A stretch of DNA of 64,000 nt, taken from the NCBI RefSeq assembly GCF_900107455.1, contig NZ_FNQB01000004.1, forward strand, positions 320,193 through 384,192, in the 5' to 3' direction. This document shows, piece after piece, positions 6,085 through 47,098 of this stretch. Made by a program: the position numbers and the translations under genes. This DNA comes from Asanoa ishikariensis. Its GTDB lineage: Bacteria > Actinomycetota > Actinomycetes > Mycobacteriales > Micromonosporaceae. The notes under the pieces are model-generated. The model saw only the letters and a program-made list of their open reading frames with translations. It was not told the origin of the DNA and made no database searches. Within the stretch, counting starts at the first letter, position 1; each line of letters starts with the position of its first letter.

Positions 6085-6234
6085 CCTACGCGTGTTTCGT
6101 GGGTGTGTCGCGTCCCATCATTTGACGTCAGCTTTACGACAGCCGTCGATGCCTCTTGTGCCCCCTACGCATGCTCGTTCCCCGCTACCGTCCGGTGTGC
6201 ATCCATCGGATTCAATCAATGGGGGAACGAGTCC

Positions 6235-9090: not shown

Positions 9091-9170
9091 CGCCGTCAGT
9101 TCAAGAGCCGACACCATGACATTCATCGTGACGGCTACGCTCGAAGCTGACCGCGACCGGGGGGAACCCA

Positions 9171-10748
9171 TTGACGTCTTCGCCACGTTGGCTGCCTGGT
9201 GAGCGTCAAGCGGACTTCTCGCCCGACGGCATCGTCGACTGTGTACGACGCTTTCGCGAGCCCGTTCATGTCGTACGCGGCCAGGCCGGCTACGAGCCCG
9301 GGCTCGGGATCGGTGGACACCTGGCCGCGGACGGCGCATTCGAGCTGCTCGGCACGCTGCCTGCGCTCTACCCGGAATGGCTCGGCGACCGCTCCTTCAA
9401 CCGCACCCACGGCGTCCGGTTCCCCTACATCGCGGGGGAGATGGCCAACGGCATCGCCACCGTCGCCTCGGTCGTCGCGATGGCCCGCGCGCGGATGCTC
9501 GGCTTCTTCGGCGCCGCCGGTCTTCCGCTGCCAGCCGTCGAACGCGCGGTAGGCGAGCTGAGTCGCGAGCTGCGGGGCACCGACAACTGGGGCGTCAACC
9601 TGATTCACACCCCGGGCACACCCGAGCTCGAAGACGGCCTGGTCGACCTGCTCCTGAAAGCCGCCGTGCCCAAGGTGTCCGTGTCCGCCTACATGGATCT
9701 CACCCCGGCCGTCGTGCGCTGTGCGGTCGCGGGCCTGAGACCGGACGGCCGCGCCCGGCACCTGTTCGCGAAGGTCTCCCGGCCCGAGGTCGCCGCCAAG
9801 TTCCTGTCGCCGGCGCCACCCGAGATCCTGCGTGCGCTCCTGGAACGCGGGCAGATCACCAGAGCCGAGGCCGACCTGGCAAGAAAGGTCCCGCTCGCCG
9901 AAGACATCACTGTGGAGGCCGACAGCGGCGGCCACACCGACAACCGGCCGCTGGCCGTGGTGCTTCCCGCGATCCGGGCCTTGCGGGACGAGTTGGTCCG
10001 CCGCCACGGCTACACCCGCCCCATCAGGGTCGGCGCCGCCGGCGGGCTGGGCGATCCAGCCGGTGTCGCGGCCGCGTTCGCCGCTGGTGCCGCCTACGTC
10101 GTGACCGGCACGATCAACCAGCTCTCCCGCGAGGCGGGACTCTCCGACGCGGCCAAAGCGCTGCTCGCCGAAGCGGACCTGGCCGACGTCACCATGGCTC
10201 CCGCCGCCGACATGTTCGAGTACGGCATCAAGGTGCAGGTGCTGCGACGCGGCACAATGTTCGCCGCCCGCGCCGGACAGCTCTACGAGACCTACCTGGC
10301 CTGTCCGACCCTTGACGACGTCCCGGACGCGACGCGCGAGCGCATCGAGAAGGACATCCTGCGCGGGACCTTTGACGACTGCTGGAAGCAGACCCGCCAG
10401 TTCTGGCTCGAACGCGACCCGGCCGAGGCGGACCGCGCCGAGCACGATCCCCGCCACCGCATGGCGCTGGTCTTCCGTTCCTATCTCGGGCTGTCGAGCC
10501 GGTGGGCCATCACCGGCGAGCCGACCAGGCAGACCGACTACCAGATTTGGTGCGGCCCAGCGATCGGTGCGTTCAACCGCTGGGTCGCCGGCAGCCCGCT
10601 CGCGGAACCCGCGCATCGAACGGTCACCCAGATCGCGCTCAACCTGCTCGAAGGTGCGGCCGTGGTGACACGTGCGCACCAGCTACGTTCCTACGGCGTC
10701 GCGGTGCCCGACGAGGCCTTCGCCCCGCGCCCGCGTCTGCTGTCGTGA
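9171..10748 (+). CDS. pfaD: PfaD-like FMN enoyl reductase of a PUFA-type synthase
   Basis: A 525-residue cytosolic FMN-dependent trans-enoyl reductase of the PfaD/2-nitropropane dioxygenase family. It reduces selected double bonds on acyl-ACP in PUFA synthases and trans-AT PKSs. The TIM-barrel motifs are present: RFPYIAGEMANGIATVASV, GVNLIHTPGTPE, and the family-typical FMN loop ADSGGHTDNRP, then VGAAGGLGDP and AAYVVTGTINQ. The TTG start at 9171 is preceded by GGGGGGAA. The next gene starts 9 bases after its stop, so it heads the synthase operon. Reductase-first order resembles the pfa1-pfa2-pfa3 operons of myxobacteria. Confidence 0.9.
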   Translation: MTSSPRWLPGERQADFSPDGIVDCVRRFREPVHVVRGQAGYEPGLGIGGHLAADGAFELLGTLPALYPEWLGDRSFNRTHGVRFPYIAGEMANGIATVASVVAMARARMLGFFGAAGLPLPAVERAVGELSRELRGTDNWGVNLIHTPGTPELEDGLVDLLLKAAVPKVSVSAYMDLTPAVVRCAVAGLRPDGRARHLFAKVSRPEVAAKFLSPAPPEILRALLERGQITRAEADLARKVPLAEDITVEADSGGHTDNRPLAVVLPAIRALRDELVRRHGYTRPIRVGAAGGLGDPAGVAAAFAAGAAYVVTGTINQLSREAGLSDAAKALLAEADLADVTMAPAADMFEYGIKVQVLRRGTMFAARAGQLYETYLACPTLDDVPDATRERIEKDILRGTFDDCWKQTRQFWLERDPAEADRAEHDPRHRMALVFRSYLGLSSRWAITGEPTRQTDYQIWCGPAIGAFNRWVAGSPLAEPAHRTVTQIALNLLEGAAVVTRAHQLRSYGVAVPDEAFAPRPRLLS

Positions 10749-10757
10749 GGAGGACCA

Positions 10758-13700
10758 ATGGTGCCGATCGCCGTTGTCGGGATCGCGGCTCTGATGCCCG
10801 GCGCGCGGGACACGGCCGAGTACTGGCGCAACATCGTCACCGGCCAGGACCTGATCACCGACGTGCCGAAAGACCGCTGGCCCTCCGACGAGTTCTACGA
10901 CCCTGACCCTTCGACGCCCGACACGACGTACAGCCGCCGGGGTGCGTTCCTGCCCGAGATCGAGTTCGATCCGCTCGCCCACGGGCTGCCGCCGTCCACA
11001 CTCGAGGCGATCGACCCCGCGCAGCTTTTGGGTCTGACCGTCGCGGACGCACTGCTGGCCGATCTGGACCGCAACCTGGCCGGCCCGCTCGACCGCGAGC
11101 GCGTCAGCGTCATCCTCGGCAGCTCCACACTCAGCCGCGTCGGCACGATGGACGCCCGCATCCAGCGCCCGGTGTGGCTCAAAGCCCTGCGGGAGCAGGG
11201 TATCGAGGAATCCCTGGCCCAGCAGGTCTGCGACCGGATCGCCGAACAGTACGTGCCCTGGCAGGAGGACTCGTTCCCCGGCCTGCTCTCCAATGTGGTG
11301 GCCGGCCGGATCGCGAACCGCCTCGACCTGCACGGCACGAGCTGCACCGTCGACGCCGCCTGCGCGAGCTCACTCGCGGCGGTCTCGGCCGCGGTGAACG
11401 AGCTCGCGCTGGGCACCGCGGACCTGGTCGTCACCGGCGGGGTGGACGCGACGAACAACCCGCTGATGTACGTGTGCTTCAGCAAGACGCCGGCCCTGTC
11501 TCCGACCGGCGACGCCCGCCCGTTCTCCGACGACGCCGACGGCACGTTGCTGGGCGAGGGCCTGGCGATGTTGGCACTCAAGCGGTTGGACACCGCCGAG
11601 CGCGACGGTGACCGGGTCTACGCCGTGATCCGTGGGCTCGGCACCTCGTCGGACGGCCGGGGTGGCGCCATCTACGCGCCGATGCCCGAGGGACAGGTGC
11701 GGGCGCTGCGACGCGCGTACGACGCCGCCGGTTACGGCCCCGACACCGTGGAGTTGGTGGAGGCACACGGCACCGCGACCCGCGCCGGCGACGCCGCCGA
11801 GTTCGAGTCGCTCCGGCACGTCTTCGGCGCGACCGGACGGCCCGACACCGGATGGTGCGCGCTCGGGAGCGTCAAGTCCCAGATCGGGCACACGAAGGCG
11901 GCGGCGGGAGCAGCCGGGCTGATCAAAGCCGTGCTCGCACTGCACCAACGCGTCCTCCCGCCGACCATCAAGGTGCGCGCACCCAGCCCAGGACTGGGCA
12001 TCGAGGACAGCCCCTTCTACCTGAACACCACCGCGCGCCCCTGGACTCAGAACCCGGACCACCCGCGCCGGGCGTCCGTCTCGAGCTTCGGCTTCGGTGG
12101 CGCCAACTACCACGTCACCCTTGAAGAACACGCACACCTGGACACGCGCGCGGGCTTCGACCCCGGCCAGCCAAATCGGCTGGCGACGGTGGCGCGCGAC
12201 AAGGGCAAGGCCGCCGACCCGGGCCGGATCGCATTCGTCTTCCCAGGGCAGGGATCGCAGTACGTCGGCATGGGCGACGACATCGCGATGGCCTTCCCGG
12301 AGGCGCAGGAAGTGTGGGACCTCGCGGCCGGGCTCCGCCTGCACGACGTCGTCTTCCCTCCACCCGCCTTCACCGACGAGCAGCGTGCCGCCCAGCAACG
12401 GCGACTCACCGACACCCGATGGGCCCAACCGGCCCTCGCCGCGCACAGCCTCTCCCTGCTCGCGCTGCTGACGTCGATCGGCGTCAAGCCGGACTGCGTG
12501 GCCGGCCACAGTCTCGGCGAGCTCGTCGCACTGCACGCGGCCGGCGTCATGGACGCCGACAGCCTGCTGCGTCTGGCCCAGCACCGGGGTGAGCTGCTGG
12601 CCCGGATCGACACCGAACCCGGCGCGATGCTGGCCGTGAGCGCTGACGCGGACGCGGTCGCATCGGCGATCGGGGAGGCTGACGCCTGGATCGCGAACCT
12701 CAACGCACCGCGGCAGACCGTCGTATCGGGGAGCGTGCGCGCGATCGAGGCACTGCGAGAGGGGCTGGCCGCGCGCGGAATCGCGGCGATCCGCCTCAAC
12801 GTGTCGGCGGCCTTCCACAGCCCCATGGCCGGCTCGGCCGAGGCGCCGCTGCGGGAGTTCCTTGAGAAGCTCGACGTGACCGCGCCGCGCATCGACGTCT
12901 ACGGGAACACCGACGCGGCGCTCTACGGCGATGACATTCGCGGCACGCTCGCGAGACAGGTCGCCGCGCCGGTCAGGTTCCTCGACCAGATCGAGGCGAT
13001 GTACGCCGACGGCGTGCGCACCTTCATCGAGGTCGGCGCCGGATCCGCGCTCACCGGCCTGATCGGACAGATCCTCGGCGACCGCGAGCACCTGGCCGTC
13101 AGCCTCGACCGGCGTGGCCGCGACGGGGTCTCCGCGTGGCACGAGGCCCTCGGCCGGCTCGCGGTGCGCGGCGTGCCGATGCACCTGATCCCGGACCGCA
13201 GCGATGAGCCACCCCAGGACCGGCCCCGGATGACAGTGCGGGTCAACGGATCCGGCTATGTTCCGCCCACCCCTGTTCGCCGGTCGCCGGCGCCCAAACG
13301 CGTGGAGGCCCCCGCCCCGATGACCGAGCCCGAACCGAACGCCCAGTGGTTGGCCGCGGTGCAGGAGGTGCAGCGCCAGACCGCCGAGGCGCACATGCAC
13401 TTCCAGCGCGTACTCGCGGAATCGCACCAGGCCTTCCTCCAGATGGCCGAGAACACCTTCGCGACCTTCACCGGCCAACAAGCACCACCTCAGCGCGTCG
13501 CCCCGGCGCCTGTCCTCATGCCACCGGCACCCGAACCGCCGATCGTGCGGCAGCACATCCCCGAGCCTGAGCCGCCGGTCCCGGCCGCGACCACCGAACC
13601 CGTGAGCCTCGCGCTGCTGCTATCCGTCGTCGCCGACAAGACCGGCTACCCGGTGGACATGCTCGACGGTGGCATGGACCTGGCCGCCGACCTGGGCATC

Positions 13701-15953
13701 GACTCGATCAAGAAGGTCGAGATCTTCGCGGCGGTACGCGAGCGCACCCACGGCCTGCCACCCACCGACTCGCCGCAGATGGCCGACCTGTTCCAGGCCC
13801 GCACCCTCGACGAGGTCATCCGCCTGGCGAGCGGCCATCCCACGACCCCGACGGTGGTGGTACGCCGATTACAGGTCCAGCCGGTCTCCGCACCGGCTTC
13901 CGGACGGGAATTGGCGGGCCTGCGCCAGGGCCCGATCGCCGTCATCGACGACGGCAGCGAACTCGCCGCTGCCGTCGTCGCCCACCTCGAAGCGCACGCG
14001 ATCACCGCCACGGTCGAGGAGGCGCCGCCGCCCGACGTGTGGGGCGTGATCCTGCTCGGCAGAGACAACCACGCCGCCTTCCGCGCCGCGCGCACGGTGG
14101 CCGCCACCATGGGAGAGCGCGGCGGCGTCTTCGTGACCGTGCAGGACACCGGCGGCAGCTTCGGCCTGGCGGATCCTGACCCGCGCCAGTGCCGGTCGGG
14201 CGGCCTCGCGGCGCTGGCGAGGACCGCCGCGAAGGAGTGGCCAGCGGCGGCGGTCAAGGCCATCGACTGCCAACGCGGCGACCGGCACGCCGACGCCATC
14301 GCCAAAGCGCTCGTCGACGAGTTGCTGACCGGCGGCCCCACCCTCGATGTGGGCCTGCGCGCCGACGGCACCCGCTGGACCCTCGCCGAGAGCGACGTGG
14401 CACCACGACCCGGGGATGACCTGAACATCACCCGCGAGTCGGTCCTGGTCGTCTCCGGCGGTGCCCGTGGCGTCACCGCCGCCGGGCTGCGCGCGCTGGC
14501 GGCACAGCGCCAGCCACGCATGCTGCTGCTCGGACGCACCACCCTCGCCGCCGAGCCCGAGTTCCTGGCGGGCGCCCGCGACGAGTCATCGGTGACCCGC
14601 CTGCTGGCCGAACGTCAGCCCGCCAAACCGGCACAGCTCGCCGCCCAGGCACGCATGATCCTGGCGCGCCGTGAGGTGCGGGCGACGCTGGCCGACCTCG
14701 AACGGGCCGGATCCACGGTGCGCTACGCCGCCCTCGACATCACCGACCGCCCCGCGTTGACCAGCGAGCTCGACCGCGCACGTCAGGAGTGGGGACCGGT
14801 CACCGGCCTCATCCACGGCGCCGGCGTCCTCGCGGACAGACGCATCGCGGACAAGACCGACGACGACTTCGACCGCGTCTACGCGACGAAGGTCGCGGGC
14901 CTGGAAGCCCTGCTGGACGCGACCGCGAACGATCCGCTCGACGTGCTGTTCCTGTTCTCCTCCGTCGCGGCCCGCTACGGCAACGCCGGGCAGTGCGACT
15001 ACGCGATGGCCAACGAGGTCCTCAACCACATGGCGAGCGCCGAGCAACGGCGGCGACCGTCCTGCCGGGTGCGCGCAATCGGCTGGGGTCCGTGGGACGC
15101 GGGCATGGTCACCGCCGCGCACGCGGCACACTTCAAGAGCCTCGGCATACCGCTGATCCCGCGTGACCAGGGTGCGCAAGCGTTCGTCACCGAGCTGAGC
15201 ACCGCCGACGGTGCCACGACGGTCCTCCTGGCCGCCGCGGACGGCCGCACCCAGACGGTCGACAAGGCAACGCACGGCTTCCTGGCTGACCACGCTCCGG
15301 CCGGGGTGCCGGTGCTCCCGCTGGCGATGGTCATCGAGTGGTTCTCGGCGCACGAACGCTCCCTGGCCGACGTCCGCGTACTGCACCGGGTCGACCTCCC
15401 CGACCTCAGCGGCCGGTTCGACATCGACGGAGGCGATGACCTCCGGCTGACCTCGGCCACCGGCCGCGTGCACTTCGCGGCACGCAGGGCCCAAAACGCG
15501 GCGGCCCGGCGCTGGACCACACCCGAAGCCTTGGGCGACCCGATCACCACGGCGTACGCCTCACCCGCGCTGTTCCACGGCCCCGACTTCCAGGTCCTGC
15601 GCAGGGTGAGCCTGTCACCGCACGGAGCCGAGGCAGACGTCGTCGGCGTGCGGGTGATGGGCTGGCCCGGCACCTGGCAGACCGACCCGGCCGCGATCGA
15701 CGGCGCGCTGCAGGCGGCGGTCCTGTGGGCCGCGCACACCACCGGCCACGCCACATTGCCGATGGGCGTCGACGCGCTGCACGTCCACCGCCCGGGACCC
15801 GCCCCCGGACCGCTGCGCTGCGTCGTGCGTGCCGGCTCCCGCACCACGGACCAGACCCGCTGCGACATCGCCCTGCTCGACGAGGACGGCGAGGTCCGCA
15901 CCGAGTTGCTGGGCGTGCGTCTCGTCCGCCGCCCCGACCTGGCACCGGCGTGA
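10758..15953 (+). CDS. pfaA: PfaA-like polyketide synthase: KS-AT-ACP-KR-DH
   Basis: A 1731-residue iterative type I synthase. KS (1 to about 430): Cys202 in DAACASS, with His in VEAHGTAT and [10 protein letters not shown] (about 490-800): VFPGQGSQ and Ser585 in GHSLGE. A coiled Pro-rich linker (about 830-935) follows. A single ACP has Ser983 in [12 protein letters not shown] (about 1060-1480): [11 protein letters not shown] nucleotide loop and YAMAN catalytic motif. The C-terminus (about 1495-1731) is a double-hotdog PKS-type DH with His in [11 protein letters not shown] and the DGALQ aspartate. PUFA synthases usually have five or more tandem ACPs, so the single ACP is unusual and suggests lower flux or a different product. 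The stop overlaps the next start (GTGA). Confidence 0.92.
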
Positions 15954-18900
15954 GCACCTTCGCACCGATCGCGATCGTCGGACGCGGCTGCGTGCTGCCC
16001 GGAGCGCACACCCCAGAACAGTTCTGGGACAACATCGCGTCAGCGCGGGTCAGCATCGACACCGTGCGCCACGCCGGCCTCGTCCGAGGCTTCGATCCCG
16101 GTGACTCCGCGTACGACCCCGCCCTGCGATGGGTGCTCCACGCGGGCCGGGCCGCGCTGCGCGAGGCAGGCGACCGCGCGCGGCCGGAGCGCAGTGGCCT
16201 CGTCCTCGGCAACCTCGGATATCCGAGCCGGAGCCTGGTGGCCTACGCGGAAAGCGTCTGGCGGGCCGACGACCCCGCAGACCCACGCGACCGGTTCTCG
16301 TCGGGTCTATGGGCCCATCAGGCCGCCAACGAGCTGAACCTGAAAGGTGGGTCGCTCGCCCTCGACGCGGCGTGCGCCTCCGCGCTCTACGCCATCAAGA
16401 TCGCCTGCGACCGGCTGCACGACGACACGGCCGACCTCATGCTCGCCGGAGCGGTCAGCGGCTGCGACGGGCAGATCATCAACTCGGGGTTCGCGGCCCT
16501 GGGCGCGCTGAGCCCGTCCGGCCGCAGCCGGCCCTTCCATCGCGGCGCCGACGGGCTCGTCCCCGCCGAGGGAACAGCCCTTGTGGCGCTGATGCGCTTG
16601 CGCGACGCGGTCGACCAGCGCGTCCCGGTGCTCGGCGTCATCCGCGGCATCGGACTCTCGAACGACGGCCGGACGGGCGGCTTCCTCGCGCCGGCGGAAG
16701 AGGGCCAACTCCGGGCCATGCACGCGGCGTACGCGCAGGCGGGTTTCGGTCCGGAGACCCTGGAGCTGCTGGAGTGCCACGCGACGGGTACACCGCTGGG
16801 CGACGCCGTCGAGGCCCGCTCGACGGCCCGCTTCTTCGGCGAGCGACCCGATCCACTGCCCATCGGCTCCGCTAAGTCCAATGTGGGCCATCTGCTGACC
16901 GCCTCGGGCGCGGCCGGTCTGCTCAAACTCCTGGCGGCCATGGACGACGGGACGTTCCCCGCCACGGCCGGCGCCGACGACCCGATCGACGACCTCCGCG
17001 ACGGCCCGCTGCGATTGTTGACCGCGAACGAACCATGGTCAGGCTCACGCCGACGCGCGGCAATCAGCGCGTTCGGCTTCGGCGGCAACAACGCCCACCT
17101 GATCGTCGAGGCGTACGACGGCGCACCGAAGACCTTCAGCGCACCGAAAGCGCCATCCGGGGTCGCGATCGTCGCCATCAGCGGCCGCGTCGGCGACGAC
17201 GCGCTCGAAGACGCTGTCCTGCGTGGCTGGACCCGGCGGCCAACCAAGAACGACATTGAGGTCGGGCTCGACGGCTTGCGCTACCCACCGCGCGACCTGC
17301 GCGAGACGCTGGGCCAGCAGGTGCTCGTGCTGGAAGTCGCCCGCGAGGCCGTCCAGGGGATCGACCTCCCGCCCGAGCGCACGGCCGTCCTGGTCGGGAT
17401 GGGCTGCGACCCGGAGACCGCCAGGGTGCGCGGTTTCGGCCCACCGCTGACCGCCGCCCGTGTCCTGGGCGCCATGGCCAACATCGCCGCCAACCGCATC
17501 GGCGGGCAGCTCGGCCTGTCCGGACCGGGCTTCGCGGTCTTCGCCGAGGAAGCCTCCGGCATCGTCGGCCTTGAACTGGCCGCCCGCGCGCTGCGGGCCG
17601 GCGAGGTGGACGCGGCTCTCGTCGGCGCGGTCGACCTCTCCGACGAGCCGGTGCACCGCGCCGCGATCGCGGAACTGGACCCGCTCGCCGAACCGGCCGA
17701 CGCGGCCGTCGTCGTCGTCCTCAAACGGCTCGACGACGCGCGGCGCGACGGTGACCGGGTCATCGCGGTGCTCGATCGCACCGACCGGCCGGCTGATTCG
17801 TTCCCCTCAGGTCTGTTCGGCGCGCCGCACGCCGCCCGTGGCCTGCTCGACGTGGCCGCTGCCGCGATCGCACTGCATCACCGCGCCTGGCCCGTCGCCG
17901 GGCAACGCGCGCAACCGCGTCTGGGCGAGACCACGGCCGAGGTCGTCACGTCCGTGCTGGGCGCGGCACCGACTCGCGTCCGCCTCCGGGCCGCGGACGC
18001 CGCTGTCTGGGCCACCGAGCCGGTACCCCGGCTGCACGTCTACTCGGGCGCGAACCGTGCGGAGGTGCTGGCCTCCCGCACCGAGAGTGACACCGGCCCG
18101 GCCCGCCTCGCCGTCGCCGCACGCGACTCCGCGCACCTGGCCGAGCAATTGCTGGCGGCCCGCGCGTGGCTCGACGGCACCGCGCTGCGGCCACCCGGTG
18201 TCGCCTTCCGCGAGCGGCCCATCGGCGGCGAGACAGCGTTCGTCTACACCAAGGGCTCGGCCTTCTACGCGGGCATGGGCTCCGACGTCGCGCTGGCGTT
18301 CGCGCCGCTGGCCGCCGGGATGGACGAGCACGCGCTGGTCTCGTGGCTCTACGAGGGGCGGGACGTACCCGACGACTCCCTGGACCAGATCCTCGCCGTG
18401 GGCTTCGTCGCGCGCCTGCACACCAGGATCACCCGCGAGGTGCTGGGGATCGAACCGCAGGCCGCGATCGGCTACTCGTCCGGCGAGTCGGCGGCCCTCG
18501 TGTCGCTGGGCGTGTGGAACGACGTGCCGGCCATGTCCGTCGACGCCCGCGCCAGCGGCCTTTTCACCCACGACCTGGGCGGCGACCTGCGCGCCGTGCG
18601 CCGCTTCTGGGCCCGGCACGGCATCACCGGGCAGCGGTGGGCCGGCTACCTCGTGTCGGCCGACGCGGAGCAGGTCCGGGCCATGCTCGCGGACGAGGCC
18701 GCCGTGCATCTGACGGCGGTCTGCGCCCCCGGCACCTGCGTGGTCGCCGGCGAGGAAGAGGCGTGCGCGGCTTTCGTCGCACGCTTCGACCCGGCCTCCC
18801 TTATCCGCATCCAGTACGACCTGGCGGCGCACGCCCCGGAACTGGTCGAGGTGCGTGACCGGTGGCACGCGCTGCACCGCCGCCCGACGACGAGCGTGCC

Positions 18901-21880: not shown

Positions 21881-23586
21881 AGCCCGGGGTCGGAATCGTC
21901 GAGGAGGCACACGCTGGCCACCTCGAGACCATGCTGGCGTACGTGGAGGGGCAGGCGCTGGACCGCCAGGAGACCTTCCACGAGTGGGAGGCCGAGCTGC
22001 CGCCCGACGCGCGCGCGGCGTTCGCCGGCCTGAAGGACTCGGACGCGATCCGCGCGAGCATCCTCGAAGCGTTCCCGGGGAACACTGTCCACAATGTCAG
22101 CGGCATGAACGAGGTCTACGTCTCGAACATGGGAGCCAAGGGCTCCGACCGGGCCTTTCTCCAGCAGCACATCGACGGGCCGTTCGGCCTCCTGCCGTTC
22201 GTGACGCTGCTGCGGTGCCTCGTCGTCGTGCGGGGCAACGACCGCGTCACGACGGTCTTCGCGGCGCAGAAGACCCAGAACACGCTCCGCACAGGGGAGT
22301 TCTGCTGGCTCGACTACAACCGGGACATCCACCACATCGTCAAGAGCGGCGAGCCGGACGACCTCCTGGACGACAGCCGCATCTGCCTCAAGGTGCACTA
22401 CGCGGTCGTCCCACGCTGGCTCGCGCCCATTCGTGGGCTGTTCGCGGGATGGAACGAGACCTACAACCGGCGGGCCCGGGACCTGTTCGTCGCCAGCAAG
22501 AACCCACAGTCCGCGATCGGCAGGTTCCTCGGCGGCATCGTCAACGCCGGCACGTTCCTCTACCCGCTGTTCTTCCAATACGTCGGCATCCTGAACCTGC
22601 TCGTCCTGCTGCTGTTCTGGGGCGTGACCTCAGGGCATCCGACCGAGCGGGTCTACCTCTTCAGCTTCGTCCACTACTTCCTGTACTTCGTCGCCCACCT
22701 GTTCCGCGCTGTCGAGCCCGGTAGGTTCGCGCGCGACGCGACACTGTTCCAGCTTGTCGCGCTGGGGACCCTGTTCTACCAATACGGGCGGACGGGGTTC
22801 GACGCGCCGTCGCTGGCCGTGGCGGCCCTCGGTTTCGGGCTGACCGGGCTCGCGTTCCTCCGGCTCGGCTCCGACCGCACGTACTTCGGCGCGGAGTTCG
22901 GCGTCGTGCCGCCGGGCAAGGTCGCGGGCTTCCCGTACGGGGTCATTCCGCATCCCATGATCGTCGGCAAGCTGGTCGGGTTCGCCGGACTCGCCCTGCA
23001 CGCCCCGTTCCGCGCGGCGTGGTGGCCGCTCCTGCTCGCCCATGTCGCGTGCTACGTGGTCGTCCTGTGCCAGGAGGTGGCCAACCGGCATGTGGGGGAC
23101 ACCTACCGTTTCGAGGCGACCTACCGCGACTTCGCCCGCTTCCACCAGCGGACAGGGAACGTCGTCGTCCACCTGTTCTCCACGGGCATCGGCCTGCTCG
23201 GCGTCTGCGGCCTCGTCGGTGCCGGGGCGCTCGCCCTCGGCGCGACGCCCTCGATGGCGGTGTCCTTCGCGGCGGTCCTCTACGCGTTCTTCTGCGCATA
23301 CACGGCACCCGACCAGACCGCGGTCGCGTCGATTCTCTACACAGGCTTCGTGCTCGCCGTCTACCTCAGCATTCCGACCCTCGGCTGGCTCATCTCGGCG
23401 GTGCTCGTCGTTGTCGGCTGGGTGGCTCAGGACGTGTCCCACATCGTGTTCCGCGAGCGGACCTATATGAGTTCCTACCAGCGCGGTCGTGGTGCCGTCG
23501 GGCAGTTCGTCCTCCACAGCGTCCTGCTCGTGCCACTGCTGTGCCGGGCGGCGTTCTTCCGGACGGCGCTCAGCCGAGCCGCCTGA
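21877..23586 (+). CDS. Fused membrane lipid enzyme: HxD domain, PEMT-like, Mpo1-like
   Basis: A 569-residue protein translationally coupled to the PfaC-like gene. Residues 1 to about 205 are soluble and contain QQHIDGPFG (His98, Asp100) and DIHHI (152-153), which could form an HxD...H iron site. From about 220 it is membrane-spanning. Residues about 330-400 resemble phospholipid N-methyltransferases (GFPYGVIPHPMIVGK). Residues about 410-535 resemble Mpo1/DUF962 2-hydroxy-fatty-acid dioxygenases: HQRTGN (His423, Asn428), His432, and WVAQDVSHIVFRER (His522). The role is inferred: tailoring of the synthase product or of a lipid carrying it, by oxidation and/or N-methylation. The last 17 bases overlap the convergent hydrolase gene. 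Confidence 0.65.
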   Translation: MKPGVGIVEEAHAGHLETMLAYVEGQALDRQETFHEWEAELPPDARAAFAGLKDSDAIRASILEAFPGNTVHNVSGMNEVYVSNMGAKGSDRAFLQQHIDGPFGLLPFVTLLRCLVVVRGNDRVTTVFAAQKTQNTLRTGEFCWLDYNRDIHHIVKSGEPDDLLDDSRICLKVHYAVVPRWLAPIRGLFAGWNETYNRRARDLFVASKNPQSAIGRFLGGIVNAGTFLYPLFFQYVGILNLLVLLLFWGVTSGHPTERVYLFSFVHYFLYFVAHLFRAVEPGRFARDATLFQLVALGTLFYQYGRTGFDAPSLAVAALGFGLTGLAFLRLGSDRTYFGAEFGVVPPGKVAGFPYGVIPHPMIVGKLVGFAGLALHAPFRAAWWPLLLAHVACYVVVLCQEVANRHVGDTYRFEATYRDFARFHQRTGNVVVHLFSTGIGLLGVCGLVGAGALALGATPSMAVSFAAVLYAFFCAYTAPDQTAVASILYTGFVLAVYLSIPTLGWLISAVLVVVGWVAQDVSHIVFRERTYMSSYQRGRGAVGQFVLHSVLLVPLLCRAAFFRTALSRAA

Positions 23587-24370
23587 CGGCGTGCAGGAGC
23601 TCCGCCGGTCGTTCGAAGGGGATCGCGTGACCGGTGTCCGCCAGGACCGTCAATCGCGCGTGCGGAAAGCACCGCGCGAGCACGTGTGAGTTGCGCGGCG
23701 CCAGCACGCGGTCGTCGGCGCCGACCAGCACCTCGACCGGCCCGCGAACAGCTCCCAGCCGAGCCGCGACGCGATGCGACGACATCGCCACCGCCTGCAA
23801 GAGCGAGTTGAGGCGCGAGTAGGGCTCCGCCCGCTGGATCTGGCGGAGTGGGGCCAATAGCTCGCGCGCGTTGCGTGCGTCGTGGACGAGCAGGCGGTCG
23901 CACATCGCCCACACGCTCACGTTCTTGGAGACGGCGGCCGCGACGGTGAGGGGCAGCGAGCGCAGGAACTCCGGTGACACGGCGTCGCCGCGGGCCGAGC
24001 TCGCCGACAGGACCAGTCCGCCGACGCTCGCCGGGTGCCGGAGGGCCAGGTGCTGCGCGACCATCCCGCCCATCGACTCACCCACCACGACCGCCGGCGC
24101 GTCCCCGACGCTGTCGCGCAGGACGGCGGCCACGTCGTCGGCCAGGGTGGCCAGGGTGTACGGCCGAAGCGAGCGCGCCGACTCGCCCGTGCCGCGGTGG
24201 TCGACGAGCACGACGCGGAAGGGAAGGGGTCCCACCCGATCGAGCCAGGGGATCCAACTGCTTCCGGACCGGCCGTAACCGGCCAGCAGCACGAGCGCGC
24301 GGTCGCTTGGATCGCCGGCGACCTGATAGGACAGCCGCACTCCGTCGCGGACCACCCAGTGGCGACGCAT
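23570..24370 (-). CDS. Alpha/beta hydrolase (esterase or thioesterase-like)
   Basis: A 266-residue alpha/beta-fold hydrolase. The nucleophile is Ser99 in the elbow GESMGG. The oxyanion region is LAGYGRSGSSW with the DHRGTGES strand-loop; the acid is in GADDRVLAPRNS and the base in DTGHAIPFERP. It is the last gene of the FAAL-btaA-btaB-like operon, and its ATG overlaps the previous stop (TGATG). In this setting it may release or edit acyl chains from ACPs, or hydrolyse a lipid ester. It has no signal peptide, so it acts in the cytoplasm. Confidence 0.85.
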   Translation of the reverse strand: MRRHWVVRDGVRLSYQVAGDPSDRALVLLAGYGRSGSSWIPWLDRVGPLPFRVVLVDHRGTGESARSLRPYTLATLADDVAAVLRDSVGDAPAVVVGESMGGMVAQHLALRHPASVGGLVLSASSARGDAVSPEFLRSLPLTVAAAVSKNVSVWAMCDRLLVHDARNARELLAPLRQIQRAEPYSRLNSLLQAVAMSSHRVAARLGAVRGPVEVLVGADDRVLAPRNSHVLARCFPHARLTVLADTGHAIPFERPAELLHAVRRLG

Positions 24371-24963
24371 CACGCCGTGAACCGCGCGACGACGTAATAG
24401 CGCAACGGGCCGTGCTCGACGTGGTCGGCGCCGTGGCGGTGCAGCAGGTCGTTCGGCACGGCCTCGACGTGGAACGCCGACAGGAACGGGCGCATGGCCC
24501 ATCCCGCGAGCTCCGAGAAGTCGACCACCCACAGCTCGCCGCCGGGCGCGAGGTGCCTGAGCGCGTTGTCGATCGCCCGGTCCTTGTCGACGAACATCGA
24601 CAGGCAGTACGACATGAGGATGCGCTGCGGCGGCGCACCCAGCACCGCACCGATGTCCCCGTCCTCGGCGAAGCCCGCGTCGATCCGCGCCCAGGGACAG
24701 CGGCGAAGGGCGTGCGCGCGCATGACCTCGCTCGCCTCCAGACCGCCGAGCGCCGCCTCCGGCCGCCGGCGGTGCAGCCGGGCGAGGTTGCGTCCGGTGC
24801 CCGGGCCGACCTCCACGAGCGTCGTCCAGTCATCGCTCGCGAGCAGGCGGTCGAGCACGCGGTCGCGGCCGAACAGGAAGTACTTCCGGGACGCGTCGTA
24901 GACGTGGTGGGTGAGCCGGTAGTACCGGTCGAGGAACGCGCGGTGGTCCGCCTCCCACGTCAT
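24370..24963 (-). CDS. BtaB-like SAM methyltransferase
   Basis: A 197-residue class I SAM-dependent methyltransferase. Motif I is VEVGPGTGRNLARL; later strands are RILMSYCLSMF and GGELWVVDFSELAGWAMRPFL. The N-terminal signature RAFLDRYYRLTHHVYDASRKYFLFGRD is typical of BtaB, which triply methylates the homoserine amine of diacylglyceryl-homoserine to give DGTS betaine lipid. Its ATG overlaps the stop of the BtaA-like gene (ATGA), and BtaA plus BtaB form a known pair in Rhodobacter-type betaine lipid synthesis. Substrate here could be a different homoserine ether or amine. Confidence 0.82.
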   Translation of the reverse strand: MTWEADHRAFLDRYYRLTHHVYDASRKYFLFGRDRVLDRLLASDDWTTLVEVGPGTGRNLARLHRRRPEAALGGLEASEVMRAHALRRCPWARIDAGFAEDGDIGAVLGAPPQRILMSYCLSMFVDKDRAIDNALRHLAPGGELWVVDFSELAGWAMRPFLSAFHVEAVPNDLLHRHGADHVEHGPLRYYVVARFTA

Positions 24964-26102
24964 GCGCCGCTGACGACCCGGTAGACGTTGACGCGCCCGT
25001 ACAGCCGGGTCCGCTCCAGCTCGCTGGCGAGGGTCGACGTCGGCTCGACGCGTTCGAAGCGGTCCGACAGGCCGACGCGGTCCACGACGCACGCGTCTTC
25101 GACGCTGCGCGTCAGGACGACGGCCCCGGGTCCGCCCACGCGGGCGATCCGGTGGAGCAGCCGATGCTGCGCGGGGGCCGGCATCCAGTCCAGCACGTCG
25201 CACAGGGAGAAGTGGGACCACTGTCCCGGTGTCCCGTCGGCGAGCAACTCTTGCAGCGACGCACGATGGAAACCCACCCGCGTCGGCGCCACGAGCGACA
25301 ACTTGTGGCTCTGCTCCCGCAGGTACGGCGGCACCGCGTCGGGATGGTCGTGGTTGAACTCTCCGGTCAGGCACAACCAGACGAACCAGTTCGTCTCCAG
25401 ATCGGTCCGCACCAGCCGCTCGAACTGCGCGGTGACGACGTTCATCATGGACTCCGATCGGCTGGCACGCAGGTTGCGGCGCCGCTGCTCGAAGTTGACG
25501 CCGACGCCGAGCAGGAACAGCGGGGTGTTGACCAGCGCGCGCATCGGCCACCAGCGCCGAAGCGAGGCGAAGATGGGTTCGAAGCGCGCGAGCCGCTCGG
25601 CGGGCGGGAGCGCCTGCACGGTGCGCAGGAAGTCCGCGTCCACGCCCACCTTCTGCCGCAGCAACCGCTGGAAGGTGCCGACCAGACCCTCGGCGTACAG
25701 GTTGTCCCGGAAGCGGCGGTGGTGCGCCCTCCAGTACCGCCCGATCCACGCCGGCAACACCGTCATGAGCGGCTGGAGCGCACGCGCCGGATCGGTGTGC
25801 CGGCCTCGGCCGAGCAGTTGGTAGAACTCGCCGTGGGACGTCATCCGTCGCGCCGCGGCGACCTTGAGGGCGGCCAGGGCCAGATGATGCGGGTTGGTGT
25901 CGACGGCGTCGATCCGCGCCGGGTGGGCGGCCAGCAGACCCGCCACACCGCAGCCGGCCCCGCTGACCGCCAGCACACGGGAACGCGGGTCCAGCTCGAG
26001 GACGCGGTTGTCGACCTCCGAGTCCTCGTACAACAGGGAGAAGGTGAAGACGTGCTTGAAGGTCGCGGCGAACGCGCGATCAGCGAGGTGTGGCACTGCC
26101 AC
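24960..26102 (-). CDS. BtaA-like (DUF3419) 3-amino-3-carboxypropyl transferase
   Basis: A 380-residue protein of the DUF3419/BtaA family, which moves the 3-amino-3-carboxypropyl group of SAM onto the hydroxyl of diacylglycerol, making homoserine-linked lipid. Family features are clear: FTFSLLYEDSEVDNRVLEL, the SAM-binding LAVSGAGCGVAGLLAAH, and IDAVDTNPHHLALAALK. The later FFLLG-type and WSHFSLCDVLDWM regions also fit. The GTG start overlaps the end of the FAAL gene by 23 bases, and an in-frame GTG two codons on is possible. Pairing with the BtaB-like gene strongly suggests a betaine-type head group; the acceptor is inferred. Confidence 0.85.
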   Translation of the reverse strand: MAVPHLADRAFAATFKHVFTFSLLYEDSEVDNRVLELDPRSRVLAVSGAGCGVAGLLAAHPARIDAVDTNPHHLALAALKVAAARRMTSHGEFYQLLGRGRHTDPARALQPLMTVLPAWIGRYWRAHHRRFRDNLYAEGLVGTFQRLLRQKVGVDADFLRTVQALPPAERLARFEPIFASLRRWWPMRALVNTPLFLLGVGVNFEQRRRNLRASRSESMMNVVTAQFERLVRTDLETNWFVWLCLTGEFNHDHPDAVPPYLREQSHKLSLVAPTRVGFHRASLQELLADGTPGQWSHFSLCDVLDWMPAPAQHRLLHRIARVGGPGAVVLTRSVEDACVVDRVGLSDRFERVEPTSTLASELERTRLYGRVNVYRVVSGA

Positions 26103-29100
26103 CGCTTCGCACCATGCCGCGCAGCTCGTCGGCGAGCCGGGTCTGCCACTCGTCGATCTCCCCGCCCGACCACTCCAGGTGGCGCGGGGAGTAGTACCAG
26201 TCGATGCGCGTCGTACCCTCGATCACCGAGCACTCGACGTACAGCGGCGGTTGTTTGACACCGCATTCCGGGTCCCACATGTCGCCGAGCGGAGCGTCAC
26301 GCAGTGCGAAGAGGCCACTGCGGCTCCGGGTCGGCACCTCGCCCTGGAAGTTGAACCAGAGCGTCGGGGCCGGCGCGTCGAGGATGCTCTTCTCTTCGTT
26401 CAGATACCGGAGAGCGTCGAAGGACATGCCCGCGGAGGGTACGTGGGTGAGCCGCTCGCCGACGGCGGCCAGTGTCTCTGCCGGGCTCTGGGCGGAGCTG
26501 TCCGCGAAGGCGAGCGGGAAGGTGGAGTGCAGGTCGCCGACCGTCCGGGAGACATCGAGGCCGTGCACCGCCGACTGCCGGCCCGAGCTCGACAGCTTGA
26601 CCGCGAGTCGGCCGCAGCTCCACCGGCTCTGGGCGGTCCGCACCAGCGCCGCGAGCAGCGTCGTGGCGACCGGTGCCCGGCGCCCGTCCATGCGCACGTC
26701 GCGGAGTGCGCGCGTCTCGTCGGGCAGCAGGTATTGGTGGGCGCTCGCCAGGTCCTTCATCGTGACGGCGGGATGCACCCGCGAGTCGTAGGCGGCGGGC
26801 GGCGCCGCGTCGAGCTGCTCCCGCCAGAAGTCCAGGTCGGCTCGTGCACCGTCGTGCGCGAAGTCGTTCACCCAGCAGGAGAACGACTCGAAGCGGGCTG
26901 ACGTCCGGGCCAGGCGGAGGCGTTCGCCCCGCTCGTCCAGCTCGCAGAGGCGGTCCAGCTCGTCGACCAGGATGCCCAGCGTCGCGGCGTCCATGACGAG
27001 GTGGTTGACGGTGATGAAGAGCTGTTGCTCCGCGCCGGTCTCCACCAGCAGGAGCCGCATCACCGGGCCGTTCTCGATGTCGAGGCGGCGATGCTGCTCG
27101 TCGAGCAACGGCAGGAACTCGTCGGGCGCGGTGACCGACTCGACGGCGAAGCTGTCCTCGATGTCGCCGTAGTGCTGCGCGAAGCGGCCGTCGTCCCGGC
27201 GGAACCTCAGGCGCAGCGCCTCGTGGCGGGCGACCAGCGCGGTCGTGGCCCGCTGGAGCCGCTCCGGCGTGAGCCGCCGGTGCACGTCGAGCATGATGGC
27301 GCGGTTCCACCAGTTCCATTGGCCGAGGTGCAGGGCGTGGGTCTGCGCGGCGCTGAACGGGACGTCGCCCGTCTGCGGCGCGCCCGCTTGGCTCTCCGCG
27401 GCCGGCGCCTGCTCGAACTGGCGCATGACGAGGGTCGCCAGGGCCCGCAGGGTCGAGCCGTCGTTGACCTCTGCCGGGGGCACGCGCGCGCCGGTCCGAT
27501 CCTCGACCCGCGCGGCCAGGTCCATCATCCCGAGGGAGTCGAGGCCGAGATCGCGCAACGGCACATCCACGGGTACGTCGGTCAGCTGTAACACGGCCGC
27601 GACGTCCTGCTGGAGCAGCCGGAGCACGTACTCCGTGTCGCCCTGGATCTCCTGGCTCGGCCTGGGTCCAGGCTTTCCCGTGAGCGCCGCCGACCGCAGC
27701 GCGCCGCTGGTCCAGCGTTCCTTGCACTCGCCGCGCTGGAGCTTGCCGCTCGTCGTCTTCGGGAGGCTGTCGGGCTTCAGCAGCAGGACCTCGTGACACT
27801 GCACGCCGCAATGGGCGGCCACCGCGGCCCGGATCGCGGCCGCCGCGCGGTCGAGCGGAACGGGCTCCCTGCTGGCGAGGGCCTTCTTGCGTAGCTCGGC
27901 CGCCACCACGACCCGCTCGACACCGTCGACCTGCACGCCGAAGGCGACCGCGTTGCCGGGCCGCAGGATCGGGTCCGCCGCGACCACGGCCGCTTCCAGG
28001 TCCTGCGGGTGGATGTTGCGTCCGCCGACGATGATGAGGTCCTTGAGGCGGCCGCAGATGAACACCTCGCCGTCGTCGCCGATGACCCCGAGGTCACCGG
28101 TGCGCAGGAACCGCCGTTCGTCGTCCGGGGTCGCCAGGCGCGCGGCGAAGACGGCGGCGTTCTCCTCGTCGGTCCGTCCCCAGTAGCCGGTCGACACGCT
28201 GGCGCTGGACACCCACAGCTCGCCGACGACGTGGGGTGGCTGCGGCCGGCGGGTGACGGGGTCGACGGCGATCACCGTCACGCCTAGCTCCGCGTCGGGG
28301 ACGCCGCTGCCGACGAGGGTCACGACGGGCGCGTCAGGTGCGGGCGGGACGATGACGCCGTCCCGGTCCAGCATCGCCCGGTCCCCGCGGAGGAGCGTCG
28401 GCCTGCTGCCGGTCTGGCCGCTGACGAAGAGCACGGCTTCCGCCATGCCGTAGACGTTGCAGAACGACGCCGGGTCGAAGCGCATCGGGCTCAGCGCGGC
28501 CTCGAACCGGTCCATCGTGGACGCGAGCATCGGCTCGCCGCCTTGGAGCGTGGCGCGCAATGACGAGAGGTCGAACGCGTCGCCGTCGCGTAGCCCGCGC
28601 AACACGTACTCGTAACCGAAGTTCGGTCCGGCGATGTGCGTGCCGCGATAGCGGTCGATCGCCTCGACCCAGAGGCGCGGTGCGACGAGGAAGGTGATGG
28701 GGGAGAAGGCGACGCAGCGCGCGCCGGTGTACATGGCGTTGAGGATCCCGCCGGCGAGCCCCATGTCGTGGAACAGGGGCACCCAACCGACGAGCACGGA
28801 ATCGCTGTCGACCCGGGTGTTGCGCGCGATCAGCTCGAGGTTGTGCACGAGGTTCCGGTGGCGCAGGACGACGCCCTTGGGCGCCGACGTCGAGCCGGAG
28901 GTGTACTGGAGATACACGATGTCGTCCGGGCCGAACCTGCTGGCCGCTTGGGCGAGTCGGGTCGCGGCCTCCTTCGGCTCGGCCCGCTTGACGCGGTTCG
29001 ACAGGAGCCAGGAGAGCTTGGGCCAGCTCTCGCCACCGCGCAGGCGGTTCGCCACCGCCGTGACGGCCGTGAGCGCCCGATACTTCCCATGCGTGAGCGC

Positions 29101-29451
29101 GAAGCGCGCCCCGCTGTCCTCCGCGACGTGCCGGAGCTTCGGCATCTCCCGGTCGAGATGTCGCGGATCGGGGCTCGCCACCGGGACCGCGATAGCGCCG
29201 AGCAGCATGCACCCGAAGAAGCCGGCGACGAAGTCGAGACCATCGTCCGGCGGGAAGATCAGCAGGACGCGATCGCCGGGCTCGACCCCGGCCGCCTGGA
29301 GGAAGTCGGCGGTCCCGGCCGCGCGCCGCACGACGTCCTCGTAGCCGGCCGAGTCCGCCTCCTGGCCGTGGCGGTCGAGGAAGGTGTACAGGGGCGCCCG
29401 AGGAGCGGCGTCGAGGCGCTCGACCATCGTCGTGAGGAGGCTCGCGGTCAT
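26080..29451 (-). CDS. Fatty-acyl-AMP ligase - ACP - condensation domain protein
   Basis: A 1123-residue three-domain enzyme. FAAL (1 to about 580): YLQYTSGSTSAPKGVVLRHR, YGMAEAVLFVSG, LRTGDLG and GRLKDLIIVGGRN motifs. ACP/PCP (about 605-685): Ser639 in DLGLDSLGMM. Condensation-like domain (about 705-1110): VNHLVMDA replaces the usual HHxxxDG, keeping His817 and Asp821 but with Asn816. The FAAL activates a free fatty acid as acyl-AMP and loads it on the ACP; the C domain would then form an amide or ester. It heads the minus-strand operon followed by btaA/btaB-like genes and converges on the PUFA-like operon, so the synthase product is the likely acyl donor. SD GGAG lies 8 bases before the ATG. 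Confidence 0.9.
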   Translation of the reverse strand: MTASLLTTMVERLDAAPRAPLYTFLDRHGQEADSAGYEDVVRRAAGTADFLQAAGVEPGDRVLLIFPPDDGLDFVAGFFGCMLLGAIAVPVASPDPRHLDREMPKLRHVAEDSGARFALTHGKYRALTAVTAVANRLRGGESWPKLSWLLSNRVKRAEPKEAATRLAQAASRFGPDDIVYLQYTSGSTSAPKGVVLRHRNLVHNLELIARNTRVDSDSVLVGWVPLFHDMGLAGGILNAMYTGARCVAFSPITFLVAPRLWVEAIDRYRGTHIAGPNFGYEYVLRGLRDGDAFDLSSLRATLQGGEPMLASTMDRFEAALSPMRFDPASFCNVYGMAEAVLFVSGQTGSRPTLLRGDRAMLDRDGVIVPPAPDAPVVTLVGSGVPDAELGVTVIAVDPVTRRPQPPHVVGELWVSSASVSTGYWGRTDEENAAVFAARLATPDDERRFLRTGDLGVIGDDGEVFICGRLKDLIIVGGRNIHPQDLEAAVVAADPILRPGNAVAFGVQVDGVERVVVAAELRKKALASREPVPLDRAAAAIRAAVAAHCGVQCHEVLLLKPDSLPKTTSGKLQRGECKERWTSGALRSAALTGKPGPRPSQEIQGDTEYVLRLLQQDVAAVLQLTDVPVDVPLRDLGLDSLGMMDLAARVEDRTGARVPPAEVNDGSTLRALATLVMRQFEQAPAAESQAGAPQTGDVPFSAAQTHALHLGQWNWWNRAIMLDVHRRLTPERLQRATTALVARHEALRLRFRRDDGRFAQHYGDIEDSFAVESVTAPDEFLPLLDEQHRRLDIENGPVMRLLLVETGAEQQLFITVNHLVMDAATLGILVDELDRLCELDERGERLRLARTSARFESFSCWVNDFAHDGARADLDFWREQLDAAPPAAYDSRVHPAVTMKDLASAHQYLLPDETRALRDVRMDGRRAPVATTLLAALVRTAQSRWSCGRLAVKLSSSGRQSAVHGLDVSRTVGDLHSTFPLAFADSSAQSPAETLAAVGERLTHVPSAGMSFDALRYLNEEKSILDAPAPTLWFNFQGEVPTRSRSGLFALRDAPLGDMWDPECGVKQPPLYVECSVIEGTTRIDWYYSPRHLEWSGGEIDEWQTRLADELRGMVRSGGSATPR

Positions 29452-29959: not shown

Positions 29960-31489
29960 CTAGTGGTCGCGCGCTCCCCTCTTGGCGAGCAGCCCGTTCG
30001 GGGGGATCGACAACACGGGTGCTGGGCGTGCCGCATGCCTGTGCAGGATCGCGTTCGCGGCGAGCAGGGCCGACGAGGCGGCGCGTTCCATCAGCGCGCA
30101 GGGAAAGGGCATGCGAACCCAGTCGCCGGCGAGGTAGAGGCCGGCGAGGTCCGTCCGGACGGACGGGCGGGTGACGTCACTTCCGAGGTCGAAGGCGGGA
30201 GCGTCGTGCCCGACTCGGTAGTCGCTGTCGACGATCGCCAGGTCGCTCACCTCCGGCCAGATCGTCTTGAGCTCCGTGCGCATGCGATCGGCCAGGGCCG
30301 AGGCGTCGACGCCGGCGGGTGCCGCGTACGCGTGAAGCTCCAGGACGCTTCCGCCTGTGCGGGTCGCCCATCGACCTGATTCCTGCTCGGCCCGGTGGTA
30401 GAGCGTGATCGAGTCGAGCGTGGCCTCTCCGGAGATGCTCGTGAACGGGGCACGGTCGGCCGCCACGTCACCGTTGAACCAGATCCGGTCGACCGCGTAC
30501 GGTGCGGCGGTGCGCAGCGCGGCGATGCGCGCGGCGAACGAAGGGCTCGTTCGCACGACGTCGGGTGATGCGGCGACGATGTCCCGCGCCGCGGCGGGAT
30601 CGACTGCGAGCACGACGTGCTCGGCCGCGATCCGTGCGCCGCCCACGAGGCAGACCTTCCAGCCCGGCTCGAGGTGATCGACCGGCGAAGCGGTGCGCAC
30701 GTCGGCGCCGAGGGCTGCCAGCCGAGCCGTCAGCGGTGACCAGATGGCTGCTTCGTAGTCGCTGTCGGGCGCGTCCATGTCCAGTCCTTCGGGGTTGCGA
30801 AGGAAGTAGAAGTGGAACTGCATGATCATCTCTGCTGCCGACATCTCGGCCTGATGGTTGAAGAAGGAATGGGCGAAGACGTCGAACAGCATCGCGCGCG
30901 CCCGTTCGGGCAGGCCGAGAGTGTCGAGGAAGGTTGCCGCCGACATCGTGTCGAAGCGGCGGTACGTCTCGTCGCGGGCGAACGCGAGCAGGGGGAGGGC
31001 GGCCTTGCTGTCCATCCGACGCAGCTCGCGCAACCGCAGGCTCGGCGACCGGACGAGGAGGGACAGCAGGTTGACGGGCGGCATACCGAACAGGCCGGTG
31101 AAATCCTCCTCGGGCCACTGCCGTGAAACGACGGGGTAGCGGCCCAGCGGGCGCAGGAAGGCCAGTTCCGGGTCAATGCGCCGCAGCACGTTCCGCCAGT
31201 TGTAGTACTGGCGAAAGAATCCGTGAAAGCCGTGCTCGACCACCTGCGTCGAGCCGTCGCGAAGGTTTTTCGGCCACGTGGTGAGGCGACCACCCAGTCG
31301 GTGACCGCGTTCGAGCAAGGTCACGGCCATGCCGCGTTCGGCCAGCGTCAGTGCCGCGGTGACGCCGGCTATTCCACCACCGATGACAACCGCCGTGGCG
31401 CGGCGGTCGACGGAATGTCCCAGACGGGTCGGGTTGGCGTCGAACCGGTGGGGAGCATTGCCGGTGATCCGGCGTAACAGCGTTGCCAT
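29960..31489 (-). CDS. CrtU-like FAD-dependent oxidoreductase (carotenoid desaturase family)
   Basis: A 509-residue flavoprotein. The N-terminal Rossmann dinucleotide motif is VVIGGGIAGVTAALTLAERG with LLERGHRLGGRL. The substrate region EHGFHGFFRQYYNWRNVLRRID resembles CrtU (beta-carotene desaturase/methyltransferase) and related phytoene-desaturase-like enzymes. The C-terminal FAD motif is GLYLAGDWVRMPFPCALMERA. No other carotenoid gene (crtB, crtE, crtI, crtY) lies in the window. Desaturation of a carotenoid is the family role; action on the nearby polyketide lipid is only a possibility. Confidence 0.85.
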   Translation of the reverse strand: MATLLRRITGNAPHRFDANPTRLGHSVDRRATAVVIGGGIAGVTAALTLAERGMAVTLLERGHRLGGRLTTWPKNLRDGSTQVVEHGFHGFFRQYYNWRNVLRRIDPELAFLRPLGRYPVVSRQWPEEDFTGLFGMPPVNLLSLLVRSPSLRLRELRRMDSKAALPLLAFARDETYRRFDTMSAATFLDTLGLPERARAMLFDVFAHSFFNHQAEMSAAEMIMQFHFYFLRNPEGLDMDAPDSDYEAAIWSPLTARLAALGADVRTASPVDHLEPGWKVCLVGGARIAAEHVVLAVDPAAARDIVAASPDVVRTSPSFAARIAALRTAAPYAVDRIWFNGDVAADRAPFTSISGEATLDSITLYHRAEQESGRWATRTGGSVLELHAYAAPAGVDASALADRMRTELKTIWPEVSDLAIVDSDYRVGHDAPAFDLGSDVTRPSVRTDLAGLYLAGDWVRMPFPCALMERAASSALLAANAILHRHAARPAPVLSIPPNGLLAKRGARDH

Positions 31490-31596
31490 GTGGCTGACTC
31501 CCGCGTCCGTGGGTGATTGTCCCGCCCCGTGCGATCGAGACTGCCACGTCGTTGCCCGCCCGGCAGCGATGGCGCGCGCCAGAGCCCCTCATCTCG

Positions 31597-32283: not shown

Positions 32284-32310
32284 CGGTGTTCCTCCTTGTC
32301 GAGGCCCAAG

Positions 32311-32339
32311 TTGACACCGTGTTCCTGGAACAGGGTCAA
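32311..32339 (-). promoter_or_regulatory. MerR-type promoter/operator of the GPP34 gene
   Basis: On the minus strand a TTGACC -35 is followed by a 19-bp spacer and a TCAACT-like -10. The spacer holds the dyad GTTCC-A-GGAAC, extended by CCCT/CCGT. Over-long spacers with a central dyad are the hallmark of promoters activated by MerR proteins. It begins one base past the MerR stop codon, so the MerR gene next door is the likely regulator. Confidence 0.75.
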
Positions 32340-32340
32340 G

Positions 32341-41803: not shown

Positions 41804-41816
41804 GATGTCCTTCCGG

Positions 41817-44123: not shown

Positions 44124-44134
44124 GGAGACTCCGT

Positions 44135-45640: not shown

Positions 45641-45649
45641 GACCTCTCC

Positions 45650-47098
<1,449 letters not shown>

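Follow-up and report, generated by a model that had tools for sequence, protein, structure and literature searches.

A five-gene unit of soil actinomycetes that probably joins an enzyme-activated fatty chain to a betaine head group

Betaine membrane lipids of the diacylglyceryl-trimethylhomoserine (DGTS) type require two enzymes, and the parts of PMC3972451 that deal with Sinorhizobium meliloti and Rhodobacter sphaeroides describe how DGTS arises from diacylglycerol through BtaA and BtaB. Here we describe a locus at positions 9171-29451 of a 64,000-nucleotide stretch of the Asanoa ishikariensis genome (the window) in which, as in those systems, the gene for a DUF3419 (BtaA-like) transferase is directly followed by one for a BtaB-like methyltransferase. 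Unlike in the DGTS systems, the window pair follows a gene for a fatty acyl-AMP ligase fused to an acyl carrier protein and a condensation domain (FAAL-ACP-C), and is accompanied by a hydrolase, a membrane protein with an HxD motif and a phospholipid-methyltransferase (PEMT) domain and, often, a polyunsaturated fatty acid (PUFA) synthase. Compared with the Rhizobium leguminosarum homologues, identity is 26 % for BtaA and 39 % for BtaB.

The synthase also has described relatives. In the section of PMC3098273 on secondary lipid synthases of types C and L, type L has pfaD at the 5' end and type C a fused pfaBC in the order KS-CLF-AT-DH2, both as in the window. The window differs in mixing the two types, in having one ACP and in the nearby betaine-type head-group genes, which that section mentions for neither type. 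Joining of a PUFA-type chain to a separately made head group, as proposed here, is likewise described in the portions of PMC13291983 and PMC12964715 on the zeamine, fabclavine, chitinimine and dioxanopeptin hybrid clusters; there the heads come from non-ribosomal peptide synthetase (NRPS) or polyketide synthase (PKS) modules, whereas the window has FAAL-ACP-C and BtaA/BtaB. The main text of PMC13291983 contains the terms 'FAAL', 'betaine' and 'BtaA' zero times, as does that of the FAAL review PMC11837247 for 'betaine', 'PUFA' and 'aminocarboxypropyl'. The individual parts are already known, and among the matches listed from the open-licence literature we found no report that joined BtaA/DUF3419 with a FAAL or a PUFA synthase, nor one of the combination.

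Comparative analysis identified a five-gene module as the conserved core of the locus. The FAAL, btaA, btaB and hydrolase genes and the convergent gene for the HxD protein were found together and in the same order in all six genomes found to carry this BtaA, namely the window, Asanoa hainanensis, Asanoa iriomotensis (split over contigs), a further Asanoa genome (G002), Paractinoplanes rishiriensis and G638, consistent with an earlier sequence-only reading of the window that had regarded FAAL, BtaA and BtaB as a unit. Three queries contributed to the count of six, which is thus not the outcome of one unbiased search: BtaA, run against 201 genomes, yielded the four Asanoa genomes, the HxD protein yielded P. 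rishiriensis, and the FAAL yielded G638. The synthase accompanied the module in four of the six. Alignment with A. hainanensis gave a main block covering window positions 9106 to 29452, nearly identical to the limits first assigned to the locus, which indicates that the locus is more than a chance assembly. A. iriomotensis carried all eight genes over three contigs, with most of pfaBC falling in a gap and approximately its last 211 residues present. The same eight genes were present in P. rishiriensis, with the synthase instead flanking the FAAL end of the module and divergent from the FAAL gene, a rearrangement that preserved linkage between synthase and module (synteny was compared by tblastn, with rows above 55 % identity shown). 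Ratios of non-synonymous to synonymous substitution rates (dN/dS) were 0.13-0.37 for every pair across six genes (the HxD, hydrolase, btaB, btaA and FAAL genes of five genomes, among them G002, and pfaD of four; G638 was outside this comparison). We judge the locus to be real, conserved, modular and under selection. For most genes dS was similar within and between Asanoa and Paractinoplanes, which hints at possible horizontal transfer between these genera.

Mapping the synthase onto these genomes revealed that it is a frequent but non-obligatory partner of the FAAL/Bta module. A view of the two facing operons as one obligatory pathway was accordingly not supported: their conservation as a single locus held for four module genomes and failed for G002 and G638, neither of which yielded a PfaD match, and other genomes combined synthase and FAAL without a BtaA match. 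In G002 the five-gene module was intact on one contig, and no pfa gene was found in 35 kb around it, the genome-wide search having covered PfaD. A 61 bp remnant of the pfaC end still overlapped the start of the HxD gene, indicating that synthase sequence was deleted there, and the dN/dS values imply that the module has been maintained in G002 or that the loss was recent. G638 also carried the module on one contig, with no pfa match in the 20 kb fetched (non-core rows at or below 35 % identity were omitted) and just short, weak matches by blastn. Two Asanoa genomes, G004 and G005, had no BtaA, PfaD or HxD gene.

FAAL-ACP-C orthologues were identified in 22 of 354 Micromonosporaceae genomes (E <= 1e-60); four loci had both synthase and Bta genes (A. 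iriomotensis being counted by contigs), three had the synthase only (G642, G643 and G077), two had Bta only (G002 and G638) and one had the synthase on a separate contig (G058). Linkage of synthase and FAAL, as first noted in the window, was borne out by enrichment of FAAL-ACP-C in genomes with PfaD at 64 % identity or more (8 of 12, compared with 14 among the remaining 342; Fisher p 2.4e-8, uncorrected for kinship) and by adjacency in several genomes. The FAAL gene adjoins pfaDAC in G642 and G643 and pfaC in G077 (shorter or weaker pfa rows were omitted from this neighbourhood comparison of PfaD genomes), and no BtaA match was found in G077 by the 201-genome search, nor anywhere in G642 and G643 by a five-genome search that matched only P. 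rishiriensis. Among the remaining four PfaD genomes, a different FAAL (37 % identity) stood beside pfaC in G761 and G066, and no FAAL was found near PfaD in the stretches fetched from G025, where the contig ends nearby, and G035. FAAL-ACP-C thus looks like the junction of the locus, with either the synthase or the Bta genes as partner.

This distribution bears on whether the window holds two separate pathways in one neighbourhood, that is, an ordinary DGTS-type lipid formed from regular diacylglycerol, and a PUFA-type product that has nothing to do with it. We consider this improbable. Although such a separation would fit G002 and G638, whose modules have no PfaD match, as well as G642 and G643, where synthase and FAAL occur but BtaA gave no match, the FAAL accompanies either partner and was present in all six Bta modules found, and linkage survived rearrangement between genera. 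Moreover, plain DGTS synthesis, as covered in part of PMC3972451, requires BtaA and BtaB alone.

At the level of domains, FAAL subfamily models were among the top NCBIfam matches of the FAAL-ACP-C protein, and none of the best 25 of 106 families reached its cut-off. Of 18 family loci, 10 matched a simple NHxxxDG/A pattern written for the motif of the C domain and eight did not; a nineteenth locus of another type (L024) also gave no match, and in the four Asanoa proteins the motif reads NH...DA. FAAL matches in G623, G645, G613 and G586 each crossed one stop codon, at which the P. rishiriensis frame (G623) simply terminates. Twelve stand-alone FAAL-ACP-C proteins (L108, L111-L121) were 71-75 % identical over their full length. 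No neighbour common to the stand-alone genes emerged from 17 FAAL loci examined up to 6.5 kb from the FAAL, with sharing defined as at least three genomes at 40 % identity and 60 % coverage; overlapping frames aside, the sole shared neighbour was a major facilitator superfamily (MFS) gene of G058, G642 and G643. As separate observations, the ligase of G761 (L082 3924-5933) is FAAL-like but of another lineage and lies downstream of pfaC on the same strand, and in G642 the gene immediately after pfaC encodes a ketol-acid reductoisomerase (L078 12511-13524).

Among the head-group genes, the BtaB-like assignment is well supported and provides stronger evidence than BtaA. The BtaB similarity is to a methyltransferase encoded directly after a DUF3419 gene in R. 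leguminosarum, and homologues in the same position were found in Shinella and two records of Sinorhizobium, with loci L006, L090 and L092-L095 carrying such an adjacent homologue; the rhizobial genes compared are homologues found by search, not established as the assayed proteins. BtaA itself is a full-length DUF3419 protein, and an alignment of ten sequences, including five of the window type and three from Rhizobiaceae, contained 28 invariant columns. Full-length DUF3419 coverage, BtaB identity and rhizobial adjacency together uphold the BtaA/BtaB assignments made from the window. The PDB contained no sequence match to BtaA, and all profile matches had E > 0.4. Proteins 24-45 % identical to window BtaA in aligned stretches were also found in other genomes of the family and in G168 of the order (L007 1438-2526, L008-L017). 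The one checked, from L007, is a DUF3419 protein, and no BtaB-like gene was found beside these relatives at E <= 1e-4 in the few kilobases fetched; they possibly represent another use of the family.

Our best reading of these data, which is tentative and which we place only slightly below an even chance, is a modular locus that would make a specialised lipid carrying a homoserine-betaine head, with the FAAL as junction, the synthase as exchangeable chain source, and the reactions and product proposed as follows. Where present, PfaD, PfaA and PfaBC would assemble a chain of polyunsaturated or polyene type, which the PfaB-type AT would release as free acid. Parts of PMC12895367 report that PfaB hydrolyses long-chain acyl substrates, which would supply the free acid that a FAAL needs. 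The FAAL would adenylate this acid and load its own ACP, from which the C domain may pass the chain to a soluble acceptor bearing a hydroxyl or amine group, such as a glyceryl backbone. No amino-acid adenylation or PKS module follows FAAL-ACP-C, the next genes being btaA, btaB and the hydrolase gene, and the block has no PKS-type genes other than pfa, which lie on the opposite strand; the C domain must hence use a soluble acceptor. BtaA would then move the aminocarboxypropyl group of S-adenosylmethionine (SAM) and BtaB would trimethylate it, giving a trimethylhomoserine ether. If the amine is trimethylated, the acyl group must be carried by an oxygen atom, making an ester the favoured linkage, with glycerol as one possible bearer. 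The hydrolase may edit or release acyl groups, and the membrane protein, with its HxD, PEMT and Mpo1-like parts, may oxidise or further methylate the lipid. The more specific version, in which an NRPS-type FAAL-ACP-C enzyme, instead of glycerol-phosphate acyltransferases, installs the chain of a betaine lipid of a new class, the chain comes from an exchangeable PUFA-type synthase and the HxD/Mpo1-like protein then oxidises it, is possible but in our judgement falls short of an even prospect. If true, such a pathway would link betaine membrane lipids, made from diacylglycerol, with specialised FAAL/PUFA-synthase lipids, which are normally separate. It would also give a genetic handle on the purpose of orphan actinomycete PUFA-type synthases, with FAAL-ACP-C as the single gene by which the link can be tested.

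Several observations weigh against this proposal. Ascertainment of the module genomes was mixed, only the four Asanoa genomes coming from the BtaA search, and G002 and G638 retain the module without a PfaD match in the genome. Neither synthase nor BtaA was found within the fetched 12-20 kb at 12 of the 22 FAAL-ACP-C genes, which indicates a further use for FAAL-C. BtaA is just 26 % identical to the rhizobial protein over 383 aa, and its acceptor may consequently not be diacylglycerol. PfaA has a single ACP. The part of PMC12895367 cited above also proposes off-loading to a soluble ACP, for which no FAAL is needed. Finally, the structure models were too poor to use, and both the role given to the HxD protein and the acceptor proposed for the C domain are guesses.

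BtaA divergence and the NRPS-type C domain would also suit a secreted specialised metabolite instead of a membrane lipid. In that case BtaA would transfer the aminocarboxypropyl group to an acceptor other than glycerol, and the C domain would create an amide or ester bond with it, yielding a surfactant-like acyl-homoserine-betaine. We regard this as unlikely, though deserving of consideration. Its patchy distribution, with BtaA, PfaD and the HxD gene absent from two of six Asanoa genomes, would be in keeping with such a product, as would the MFS genes that adjoin the FAAL gene in G642, G643, G058 and G002. However, the G002 MFS protein is just 34 % identical to that of G643, family searches recognised no transporter among the eight genes of the conserved block, and the BtaB-like protein is close to the methyltransferase in the rhizobial btaB position.

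The PfaD, PfaA and PfaBC proteins of the window read as a PUFA-type synthase. PfaD and PfaA both exceed the cut-offs of their curated models, and PfaBC combines KS and CLF (two Pfam KS stretches) with an AT and three FabA stretches, giving KS-CLF with two FabA-type dehydratases. The PfaB-type AT of the fusion scored under its family cut-off. We take the KS cysteine, the GHSLG and GYSSG serines and the DH histidines to be present in PfaA and PfaBC from motif reading, by which two PfaBC DH copies presumably retain the active-site histidine. Tandem ACP repeats are the usual state of PUFA synthases, and the ACP motif of window PfaA occurs in one copy.

The HxD gene starts within the end of pfaC and, as a companion in all six module genomes, belongs with the FAAL/Bta genes. 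It had been missed in the sequence-only reading, whose other seven genes, coordinates and gene calls all stood, family searches supporting every call; the parts and the head-group logic likewise held, but the functional border between the operons did not, given that this eighth gene sits with FAAL/Bta and the synthase is optional. The encoded protein of 569 residues has a PEMT domain above cut-off and an Mpo1-like stretch below it, and its N-terminal domain had no Pfam match. Residues H98, D100, H152 and R168 were invariant in six of six homologues, a pattern that, by motif reading, we take as possibly resembling Fe/2-oxoglutarate oxygenases. AlphaFold2 models of the full protein and of the N-terminal domain (predicted local distance difference test, pLDDT, 37 and 42) were too poor for fold comparison. 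No sequence match was found in the PDB or on plasmids, and in the phylum sample the protein was found in the window alone (1 of 396).

In the window, the plus-strand genes pfaD, pfaA and pfaBC face the minus-strand operon of FAAL-ACP-C, btaA, btaB and hydrolase, with the HxD gene on the plus strand in the same block (Table 1). Spacing is tight throughout: 9 bases separate pfaD and pfaA, the remaining same-strand neighbours overlap by 4 to 23 bases, and where the convergent operons meet, their 3' ends share 17 bases.

Table 1. Genes of the conserved block in the window, with the evidence for each assignment
Feature	Position	Strand	Evidence
pfaD, enoyl reductase of PUFA-type synthase	9171..10748	+	TIGR02814 611.5 bits (cut-off 449); 89 % identical in A. 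hainanensis
pfaA, KS-MAT-ACP(1)-KR-DH	10758..15953	+	TIGR02813 1153 bits (cut-off 1010); Pfam domains; single ACP motif copy
Fused pfaBC, KS-CLF-AT(PfaB type)-DH-DH	15950..21880	+	Pfam matches to KS, AT and FabA (three stretches); PfaB family 74.5 bits (below cut-off of 144.3)
Membrane protein with HxD...H...R N-terminal domain, PEMT domain and weak Mpo1-like C-terminus	21877..23586	+	PEMT 38.6 bits (above cut-off); Mpo1-like 19.7 bits (cut-off 24)
Alpha/beta hydrolase, possible esterase or thioesterase	23570..24373	-	Abhydrolase_1 95 bits, scored on the longer frame 23570-24532
BtaB-like SAM-dependent N-methyltransferase	24370..24963	-	39 % identity over 178 aa to R. leguminosarum methyltransferase directly after DUF3419
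BtaA-like 3-amino-3-carboxypropyl transferase (DUF3419)	24960..26102	-	PF11899 182 bits, profile positions 4-377 of 385; 26 % identity over 383 aa to rhizobial DUF3419
FAAL-ACP-C: fatty acyl-AMP ligase, carrier protein, condensation domain	26080..29451	-	AMP-binding, PP-binding and Condensation domains

Beside the FAAL gene, positions 29960-33087 encode an HpnE-like FAD enzyme (29960-31489), a GPP34 protein and a MerR regulator. These were rejected as members of the locus on two grounds: conservation of the block stops where the FAAL gene starts, and the FAD gene of A. hainanensis is some 9 kb distant from the FAAL gene there. P. rishiriensis and A. hainanensis both have short-chain dehydrogenases close to the locus; these are not close relatives of one another and were likewise rejected as a common part. 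Upstream of pfaD, 6103-8523 encodes a protein with bacterial TSP3 repeats, and on the other side of the locus 39998-49168 contains five polysaccharide hydrolase genes in a row (GH43, GH127, GH62, GH10 and GH43), four of which encode ricin-type lectin domains.

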